Source: Bacteroidales bacterium
Lineage (GTDB): Bacteria; Bacteroidota; Bacteroidia; Bacteroidales; UBA932
Direction: 5' to 3'
Assembly (NCBI GenBank): GCA_028691975.1
Contig: JAQUYF010000008.1
Span: 2,341 to 50,506 of the forward strand
Length of the DNA: 48,166 nucleotides
Shown here in pieces: positions 38,131-40,333 of this stretch; within the stretch, counting starts at the first letter, position 1; the number at the start of each line of letters is the position of its first letter. The notes under the pieces are model-generated. The model was not told the DNA's origin and made no database searches. It saw only the letters and a list, made by a program, of their open reading frames with translations. The translations under genes were made by a program, and so were the position numbers.

Positions 38131-38154
38131 AATGATAGCATACAGTTTTCTCTA

Positions 38155-38162
38155 CAAAAGTA
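38155..38162 (-). promoter_or_regulatory. -7 box of ispF
   Basis: TACTTTTG on the minus strand, 24 bases ahead of the ispF ATG. The plus-strand -7 box of the next gene lies nine bases away. Confidence 0.5.
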
Positions 38163-38171
38163 AAAAATTGT

Positions 38172-38179
38172 TAACTTTG
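38172..38179 (+). promoter_or_regulatory. -7 box ahead of the small membrane protein gene
   Basis: TAACTTTG, 21 bases before ATG 38201. A TTTTC at 38146-38150 could serve as -33. Confidence 0.55.
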
Positions 38180-38200
38180 TCGCAACTAAAAAGACAAAAT

Positions 38201-38569
38201 ATGGGTTTAATAAGCTTTTTCAGAACTCCCGAGCATCGAGTATTCCACTATACGCCACGATACTATGATGAGAAGAAGGAGCATCTGCAGGAATTGTACA
38301 AAAAGTACGGCAAAGACAAAAACGGTAAACCTATAGAAGGTATTGCCCAAAACGAAGATCCCTCTGCCGCGAGAGAGATAGAAGAGGCTGAAAAAAAGTC
38401 GGAATATGTGCCTGGAGCAAGTATAAGAGGCTCATTTTCACGCGGCCATGAAGAGCATCTAAAGCAGGCAGGTAATCAGGGAGTTAAAAGAGTCATTACT
38501 CTTGTTACCCTTGTTATCATCCTAGTGGCCGTCTATTTTCTTGCTGAGGGATTGGCTAAAATACTGTAG
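38201..38569 (+). CDS. Small tail-anchored membrane protein of unknown function
   Basis: A 122-residue protein I do not recognise by name. The N-terminus M-G-L-I-S-F-F-R-T-P-E-H-R-V-F is followed by a charged, probably helical region rich in Lys and Glu, and a single C-terminal membrane helix (about 95-117). It could be a cytoplasmic protein anchored by its tail. It lies four bases ahead of mutL. ATG 38201 is chosen because the in-frame extension to 38132 would run through the promoter and into ispF. Confidence 0.75.
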   Translation: MGLISFFRTPEHRVFHYTPRYYDEKKEHLQELYKKYGKDKNGKPIEGIAQNEDPSAAREIEEAEKKSEYVPGASIRGSFSRGHEEHLKQAGNQGVKRVITLVTLVIILVAVYFLAEGLAKIL

Positions 38570-38572
38570 AGT

Positions 38573-40333
38573 ATGTTGCAAATCTTACCGAGCAGCATTT
38601 CCAATCTTATTGCGGCAGGTGAAGTTGTCGGACGCCCTGCTTCAGTGGTCAAGGAACTCCTTGAAAACGCCATTGATGCCGGAGGAAAGAACATAAGCGT
38701 CATCATTCTGGATGCCGGCAGGACCTTGATACAGGTCATTGACGACGGCTGCGGCATGACTGACGAAGAGGCAGCCCTCTGCTTCGAGCGTCACTCCACC
38801 TCCAAGATTGCCACTGCTCAGGATTTGGAACGAATCTCAACTTACGGCTTCAGGGGAGAAGCTCTGGCTTCTATCGCAGCTGTTGCTGAGGTTACCCTCA
38901 AAACGAGAAAACAGGAGGAGGAAATTGGCACACAGGTGATAATCTCCGAATCCGGAATTTCATCTCAAGAAGCTGTTTCTACTCCAGTCGGAAGCAATTT
39001 CGCAATCCGCAATCTCTTTTTCAATGTTCCTGCCCGCAGAAAATTTCTCAAGTCGGATAATGCGGAATTGCGTCATATAATCGCAGAGTTTACACGCGTA
39101 GCCATCACAAGACCAGGCATTGCAATGCGGCTTACGGTCAATGGAAAAGATATTTACAGCCTGAGAGCAGTAGCCGACGCCAAACACAGAATACACGATA
39201 TTTTCGGAAGAGAAGTGATAAATGAGCTGGTAGATGTAAAAACGGAGACTTCAGTTGTGCGAATTACCGGATACATCGGAAAGCCTGAAGATGCCCGAAA
39301 AACACTTGGTAACCAGTTTTTTTTCGTTAACGGAAGATATTTCCGCTCGCCGTATTTTCACAAGGCTGTATGCAAACCATACGATAAACTGATTCCGGAC
39401 GGGTACACTCCAACCTATTTTCTTTTCCTTGAGACTCCTTTCGACAAAGTTGATGTCAATATTCATCCTGCCAAGACTGAGGTTAAGTTTGAGGATGAAT
39501 CTATGATTTTTGAGATACTGATGGCCTGCATCAGGGAGGCTCTGGGTAAAAATTCTTTCATACCGAGCATTGATTTCGACACGGAAGGTGCTGTGGAAAT
39601 ACCCTCTATGTCTCACAAATATGATAGGGAAGGATACATTGCCCCTCCAAAAATAGATTATGACCCGCTATTCAACCCTTTTCGCGAAAGCGCATTCGAG
39701 AATGCACCGAAAGAGCCGATAATCGACCGCAGTGAGCAGTATGGTATCCTGTATGAGGAGCAGTCGGCCGCTGTGCAAAATAAGATTTTGGTAATACAGA
39801 AGAAATATATAGTCACTCCTGTCAAATCGGGGCTATTGGTGATAAATATCCGCAGAGCGAATGAACGTATTCTGTATGAAAGATATCTGGAATCTGTAGT
39901 TGAACAACAGCCGATCACTCAGCAGTCACTCTTCCCTCAAACGATTAAACTCAGTCATGAAGAGTATCTGATCATGATTGACAGTTTGTCCCTAACTGAG
40001 AAGTTAGGCTTTGATATTAGAGACTTCGGCAATGATTCTGTGATAGTTTACGGCCTGCCGGACGGATTCTCGGCTGATGATGAGGCTGTCAAAATAGCCG
40101 TTGACGCGCTCATCGCATCTCTCAAAGAAGACGAGTATTTATCTGACAACAAACCTGAAATTGCTGCAAATTTGGCAAAATCCGCTGCCGCAGGGGATAA
40201 AAAAGCCCTAAATCAAGAAGAGGCACAAATATTGGTAGATCAATTATTTGCCTGCCGAGAGTCTTCGACTGCTCCGGATGGACGGAAATGTATGTCGATA
40301 ATAACAATTGAAGAATTAGAGAAGAGATTATGA
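38573..40333 (+). CDS. mutL: DNA mismatch repair protein MutL
   Basis: GHKL-ATPase that couples MutS mismatch recognition to strand removal. It has 586 residues. The ATPase motifs are intact: K-E-L-L-E-N-A-I-D-A-G (Glu28, Asn32), D-D-G-C-G-M and Y-G-F-R-G-E-A-L. The C-terminal dimerisation domain is present, but the endonuclease signature expected near 425 (D-Q-H-x-A-H-E-R) reads N-I-R-R-A-N-E-R (425-432), and the terminal metal motif (C-P-H-G-R-P in other MutLs) reads A-P-D-G-R-K. It overlaps the rhomboid gene by four bases. Confidence 0.95.
   Translation: MLQILPSSISNLIAAGEVVGRPASVVKELLENAIDAGGKNISVIILDAGRTLIQVIDDGCGMTDEEAALCFERHSTSKIATAQDLERISTYGFRGEALASIAAVAEVTLKTRKQEEEIGTQVIISESGISSQEAVSTPVGSNFAIRNLFFNVPARRKFLKSDNAELRHIIAEFTRVAITRPGIAMRLTVNGKDIYSLRAVADAKHRIHDIFGREVINELVDVKTETSVVRITGYIGKPEDARKTLGNQFFFVNGRYFRSPYFHKAVCKPYDKLIPDGYTPTYFLFLETPFDKVDVNIHPAKTEVKFEDESMIFEILMACIREALGKNSFIPSIDFDTEGAVEIPSMSHKYDREGYIAPPKIDYDPLFNPFRESAFENAPKEPIIDRSEQYGILYEEQSAAVQNKILVIQKKYIVTPVKSGLLVINIRRANERILYERYLESVVEQQPITQQSLFPQTIKLSHEEYLIMIDSLSLTEKLGFDIRDFGNDSVIVYGLPDGFSADDEAVKIAVDALIASLKEDEYLSDNKPEIAANLAKSAAAGDKKALNQEEAQILVDQLFACRESSTAPDGRKCMSIITIEELEKRL

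Follow-up and report, generated by a model that had tools for sequence, protein, structure and literature searches.

The mutL locus

The window (the whole stretch of DNA analysed, 48,166 nucleotides) belongs to a draft genome of 2,010,678 bases in 106 contigs, which is 86.94% complete, so that genes not found in this genome may be unassembled. MutL is encoded by an open reading frame of 586 aa on the forward strand (38,573–40,333). Pfam matches to HATPase_c_3, HATPase_c, DNA_mis_repair and MutL_C, all over the cut-offs, are combined in one chain, and by these domains the protein is certainly a MutL. Three ATPase motifs are intact, as stated in the original prediction for the ATPase half: the N-box E-N-A-I-D-A-G (aa 31–37; 38,663–38,683, forward strand), D-D-G-C-G-M (aa 57–62; 38,741–38,758, forward) and G-F-R-G-E-A-L (aa 92–98; 38,846–38,866, forward). 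The C-terminal dimerisation and former endonuclease domain (aa 396–586 as modelled with AlphaFold2 and searched with Foldseek; 39,758–40,330, forward) keeps a clamp-binding-type motif, Q-Q-S-L-F-P (aa 450–455; 39,920–39,937, forward); motifs of the form Q-x-x-L-x-P bind the sliding clamp.

Directly before mutL lies an open reading frame of 145 aa (38,132–38,569) whose product is hydrophobic over a stretch close to its C-terminal end and matches no Pfam family; a homologue is present at 77 of the 80 mutL loci of named records. Downstream of mutL are located genes for a rhomboid-family membrane protein (Pfam PF01694; 40,330–41,004, forward) and a membrane-anchored protein of the endonuclease/exonuclease/phosphatase fold (Pfam PF03372; 41,004–42,071, forward).

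Loss of the metal ligands

The active site of yeast Pms1 consists of five metal ligands, which are common to the MutL of B. subtilis and Neisseria (available part of PMC3814310). The equivalent residues are named in the accessible text on Aquifex MutL modelling (PMC4047009), and two of the ligands are H464 and E468 in the B. subtilis numbering used in the portion of PMC2965676 at hand. In a HMMER alignment with the B. subtilis MutL C-terminal domain (3gab), D-Q-H-A-A-Q-E-R stands opposite N-I-R-R-A-N-E-R of the window protein (aa 425–432), and C-P-H-G-R-P opposite A-P-D-G-R-K (aa 567–572). Motif I as a whole (aa 425–436; 39,845–39,880, forward) reads N-I-R-R-A-N-E-R-I-L-Y-E for D-Q-H-A-x-x-E-x4-E, motif II (aa 535–537; 40,175–40,183, forward) reads A-K-S for A-C-K/R, and motif III (aa 567–572; 40,271–40,288, forward) reads A-P-D-G-R-K for C-P-H-G-R-P. 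The remaining three ligands are presumably C573, C604 and H606 in B. subtilis numbers; H464 is then replaced by R427, C573 by K536, C604 by A567 and H606 by D569, and E468 corresponds to E431. Of the five ligands with which MutL-type endonucleases bind metal, the window MutL keeps E431 alone, and none of motifs I, II and III is intact. The degeneration of motifs I and III, on which the original prediction was built, is confirmed by the alignment to 3gab and by this ligand count; the break in motif II, with K536 in the Cys position, had escaped it. Judged by its sequence, the window protein is almost certainly no canonical metal-dependent endonuclease, and its ligands would place it outside the endonuclease MutL group.

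Distribution in genus, class and phylum

A mutL gene was detected in 29 of 31 relatives (the exceptions are G001, 78% complete, and G028, 61% complete), in 61 of 61 genomes of the phylum sample and in 59 of 59 family genomes. Genus, family, order and class labels of the MutL rows are kinship codes, and the records of 80 relatives, many from ruminants and horses, bear titles such as Bacteroidales or Bacteroidia bacterium, from which the class is taken to be Bacteroidia. Alignment of 214 MutL rows gave 207 distinct sequences, only identical ones being removed, and some close or near-identical organisms, drawn from two collections, remain among them; L030, a further fragment of a gene already represented, and L001, which is the window's own MutL, were excluded. 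Two sequences are gapped at ligand columns, L010 (contig end; its duplicate is L042) and L212 (frame split). A MutL with at most two of the five ligands is termed lost, and one with all five kept or canonical. The ligand states are bimodal: among 205 distinct fully readable MutLs, 185 have none to two ligands, 20 have all five, and none has three or four.

One ligand is present in 11 and none in 6 of the 18 other MutL rows of the genus, the last row ending at a contig end before motif III. The corresponding numbers are 37 and 16 among 54 family rows (one gapped), 66 and 13 among the 80 MutLs of named records (one gapped), 7 and 2 among 11 order rows (two rows with two ligands) and 7 and 6 among 14 class rows (one with two). 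The 35 phylum rows outside the class comprise 20 with all five ligands, 11 with one, one with two and three with none. These rows were read from 46 outside-class genomes of the phylum sample; of the 11 left unread, 10 belong to family f27, whose three read members are canonical, and one to f22 (3/3 read members canonical), so that the 35-row sample probably underestimates how common canonical MutLs are outside the class.

Counted over the 169 distinct lost MutLs of the class, that of the window among them, C573 and H606 are never present, H464 is found in 4, C604 in 8 and E468 in 121. Eight family MutLs (L194, L195, L196, L198, L215, L219, L221 and L223) carry motif III in the form C-P-x-G-K/R-P; they hold the C604 cysteine (8/169), and the other Cys/His ligands are absent from them. 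The MutL of one genome of the window's genus (L029 in G009), which lies on a possibly contaminating contig, has one ligand and is 35% identical to that of the window. In a relative assembled as a single contig (L212, G378:C1:447989-450008) MutL is split over two frames of 428 and 270 aa, for which a pseudogene, a frameshift and a sequencing error are all possible.

A degenerate DNA pattern for C-P-H-G-R-P was searched for in 396 class genomes. It recovered 20 of 20 phylum MutLs known to contain the motif, a positive control of the codons and the extra two bases, and variants such as C-N-H-G-R-P escape it. The pattern matched 17 genomes at 19 places, 16 of them outside mutL, in line with the approximately 21 matches of a reversed control pattern in the same search. 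Matches within mutL were restricted to 3 of the 396 genomes, all of one genus, whose MutLs keep all five ligands; within the collection used, the order of this canonical genus consists of these three genomes. As read from the ligand columns and the motif search, MutL ligand loss spans almost the whole class sampled.

History of the loss

The history of the site was reconstructed on a midpoint-rooted tree of 78 MutL N-terminal domains, built with the ligand columns excluded and including 15 family rows (the window among them) and one long branch, L151. The tree requires six changes between kept and lost states, at least five of which are forced by well-supported branches. Lost rows of the class form one clade (100/95) and are placed beside the canonical genus within a clade supported at 100/98; the remaining changes are found elsewhere in the phylum. 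On this tree the loss arose several times in the phylum. The direction would be loss rather than gain, given that the ligands are common to distant MutLs. Motifs II and III appear to have been lost first and motif I to have decayed further in the window's family, an order suggested by the class-wide absence of C573 and H606 and the greater variability of motif I.

The original prediction attributed the loss to this organism, which is correct as far as it goes; its single-organism scope is not, the loss being nearly class-wide and repeated in the phylum. Decay peculiar to this organism is thereby ruled out by the class-wide spread and the tree. Sequencing or assembly error, which the prediction had named as a possible refutation, and chance are ruled out too, because relatives have the same loss.

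Fold and selection

The C-terminal domain (aa 396–586) was modelled as an AlphaFold2 monomer with a mean pLDDT of 92.6. Its best Foldseek matches are the MutL C-terminal domains of B. subtilis and Neisseria (3gab, 3kdk, 3kdg and 3ncv), with 1x9z, which we take to be E. coli MutL, further down; a canonical phylum MutL domain modelled as a control gave a pLDDT of 96.0 and similar matches. The model, the fold matches and the ligand loss together describe a domain whose fold is kept and whose known chemistry is gone.

Pooled over 30 pairs of lost class MutLs that do not overlap, dN/dS values by the simple Nei-Gojobori method are 0.057 for the N-terminal part, 0.144 for the linker, 0.097 for the C-terminal domain and 0.079 for the region of the former site; in several pairs the synonymous sites approach saturation. 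The former endonuclease domain is under purifying selection. Of the 185 lost MutLs, 157 carry the motif Q-x-x-[LIMVA]-x-P and the other 28 depart from the pattern; among the 20 kept ones it is present in 18.

Under the same alignment procedure E. coli MutL, too, retains only one ligand, the same glutamate (E468), a hint that this residue is conserved for structural reasons. The arginine next to it forms a salt bridge with a later Glu of the motif, according to the accessible part of PMC2965676. At the A465 position 154 of the 185 lost MutLs have arginine and none of the 20 kept ones does, and the mean net charge of residues 425–436 shifts from −2.0 in kept to +0.9 in lost MutLs.

Partner proteins and incision enzymes

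A MutS_I match is present in 79 of 80 genomes, the exception being G400 (93% complete). MutS of the window genome (881 aa) contains G-D-F-Y-E and G-P-N-M-A-G-K-S, which we take to be the mismatch-reading motif and Walker A, respectively, and, towards its C-terminus, Q-L-S-L-Y, similar to a clamp-binding motif. MutL_C has exactly one match in each of the 80 genomes; a second MutL paralogue, as in an MLH1/PMS-like pair with an intact site, was found in none of them.

The genome-wide search for mutH that the original prediction had proposed gave no profile matches in the window genome (86.94% complete), the E. coli control search being positive. Its statement that strand nicking would need another explanation if MutH is absent therefore stands. 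MutH-family matches in relatives are confined to 9 of 295 order genomes and 3 of 198 phylum genomes, two partly overlapping samples. Eleven such loci, each from a different genome, were read. Open frames of 463–514 aa, the length of two-domain Sau3AI-like enzymes, contain seven of them, and three of these seven frames hold a second MutH-type match. Shorter frames with a match measure 282 aa (L140), 169 aa (L141, second match in a frame of 192 aa), 111 aa (L146, second match in a frame of 136 aa), 203 aa (L147) and, in the twelfth genome, 216 aa (G308); these may represent true MutH in a few order genomes.

NucS_C gave no match at E ≤ 0.001 in the window genome or in 14 class genomes outside the family. 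In the set of 80 genomes 13 were matched, five of them over the cut-off and all five outside the class; two family genomes have matches below the cut-off. NucS as a replacement was rejected, with no match in the window genome and none of the five over-cut-off matches in the class. The large subunit of exonuclease VII was found in 32 of 39 genomes (30 over the cut-off, window genome included, and two below it). It had no match in the other seven, five with lost and two with canonical MutL, and with these gaps and the two sub-cut-off matches exonuclease VII is not a general excision enzyme here.

Possible routes of mismatch repair

With a nuclease-dead MutL and without MutH, the strand break must come either from replication ends or from another nickase. 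The absence of nicking by MutL, its matchmaker role and, above all, the source of the break are inferences. Mismatches would be found by MutS, which loads MutL; MutL would act as an ATP-driven dimeric matchmaker, nuclease-dead and E. coli-like, bound to the sliding clamp via Q-Q-S-L-F-P. Like E. coli MutL it would recruit exonucleases and a helicase, but neither MutH nor MutL would make a nick. Strand choice and entry would most likely rely on ends, such as Okazaki ends and gaps, that the new strand already carries behind the fork and that are read via the clamp. This reading as a whole, a matchmaker with a dead domain, no MutH and breaks from pre-existing ends, is held with moderate confidence. 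Of its parts, a continued role of MutL in mismatch repair is very probable, and the chances that pre-existing ends are the main source of the break are about even. Several points count against it. Metal-site mutations in yeast pms1 result in a complete mismatch-repair defect in vivo (available part of PMC3814310), and pre-existing ends are thus insufficient in yeast. The E468 retained in most lost class MutLs could also allow residual metal binding. Further points are the patchy presence of exonuclease VII, the 28 lost MutLs with a departing clamp-type motif and the draft state of the window genome.

Recruitment of another nickase by the nuclease-dead MutL, in place of MutH or the MutL endonuclease, could operate in the class, though this is rather unlikely. 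The assessments overlap and need not sum to one, since this explanation shares the dead matchmaker with the reading above. It would account for the retention of MutS and of a MutL under selection where neither known incision enzyme was found, and the shared direction of change at the former site (Arg at A465, the charge shift) is what a remade binding surface might show; but the arginine gain may equally be inheritance in one clade, and the search produced no nickase candidate, NucS_C included. The product of the PF03372 gene, two genes downstream of mutL, has the fold of a nuclease, and its position gave it some interest as the replacement. A rhomboid homologue stands by mutL at 11 of 14 class and 7 of 11 order loci, at none of 35 phylum loci (only 16 with at least 1 kb downstream) and in neither of two canonical class genomes with flanks, and in some lost class loci the PF03372 gene follows. 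However, a PF03372 homologue is near mutL in only two of four lost class genomes with wide-flank loci and is absent from the lost outside-class genome L283. At its N-terminus the PF03372 protein has three hydrophobic segments; basic residues precede the first of them and also separate segments two and three. Basic residues flanking such segments indicate the orientation of a membrane protein, and the catalytic domain is predicted to face the periplasm, outside the cytoplasm. Its predicted topology and patchy presence disfavour this neighbour, which is most improbable as the nickase. The grouping of mutL with the rhomboid gene, sometimes together with the PF03372 gene, recurs across the class and is absent in two canonical class and three phylum wide-flank genomes.

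Incision by MutL itself through a different metal site, built of other residues, is improbable. Across 18 rows of the window's genus, that of the window among them, C561 and E436 never vary and D569 is present in 94%. Two of these residues, C561 and D569, belong to the former motif III or its close surroundings, and the aspartate could replace the H606 ligand. Such a site (C561, D569, E436) may be private to the genus, within which 7 of the 18 other rows have Gln at the E431 position and C573 is replaced variously by A, E, I, R, Q or H. A shared alternative site, which the original prediction had allowed for, was not seen at the class level: no Cys/His column reaches 80% in the 169 lost MutLs, and the only acidic columns to do so are 436, 481, 581 and 583, in contrast to the kept MutLs (n = 20), where H409, H427, H430, C536, C567 and H569 are at 100%. 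Only slightly less improbable is that MutL is kept for another job, such as blocking recombination between diverged sequences, with mismatch correction weak or absent. Anti-recombination by MutS and MutL does not obviously require a nick, and among the open-access papers listed, mostly their titles and shown abstracts, none was found to describe a mutator phenotype of mutS or mutL in the class. Against it, a MutS that carries the mismatch-reading motif is retained as well as MutL, and most of these MutLs still have the clamp-type motif, a feature coupled to replication.

Returning to the nuclease-dead matchmaker, nearly the whole class might run MutS-MutL repair without MutH or the MutL endonuclease by a third route, either another nickase recruited by the dead MutL or replication ends alone; the odds of this are evenly balanced.

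Relation to known systems

A survey of MutL conservation was reportedly made in 2010. Reports of the present MutL loss were not found among the titles and shown abstracts of the open-access literature, and the available parts of PMC9425974, PMC8744996, PMC13256674 and PMC3477668 hold nothing bearing on MutL ligand loss. A dichotomy, in which bacteria use either MutH or MutL for incision, is stated in the accessible part of a 2025 review (PMC12733681). If the class-wide pattern holds at the bench, this dichotomy would fail for one of the largest gut and environmental bacterial groups. Bacteroidia, as the class is identified here by record titles, dominate the human gut. Strand discrimination without a dedicated nick would, if true, be testable in tractable laboratory strains, and the canonical genus beside the loss clade, together with the further losses in the phylum, would be a natural experiment for finding the third route.

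The window MutL shares its domain order and C-terminal fold with the endonuclease MutLs of MutH-less organisms (B. subtilis, Neisseria, Aquifex; yeast Pms1, human PMS2) and, like them, has a clamp-type motif and no MutH match beside it; it differs in the absence of four of the five ligands and in broken motifs I–III. It resembles E. coli-type MutL in lacking the endonuclease site, in the single ligand E468 and in the fold match to 1x9z. However, E. coli-type MutL works with MutH, of which the window genome has no match and its relatives few (12 genomes, 7 with frames of Sau3AI-like length). Eukaryotic MLH1, too, is a MutL homologue that lacks an endonuclease site of its own. In the MutL heterodimer the endonuclease motif is carried by one subunit only, as described in the part of PMC2965676 at hand. 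MLH1 has an active partner, whereas only one MutL_C match is seen in each of the 80 genomes here. EndoMS/NucS is presented in the accessible portion of PMC8228993 as a way of doing without MutS-MutL incision; the window genome differs in the presence of MutS and MutL and the absence of a NucS_C match. In five phylum genomes (G080/L250, G053, G077, G082 and G086) an over-cut-off NucS_C match is found alongside MutS and MutL.
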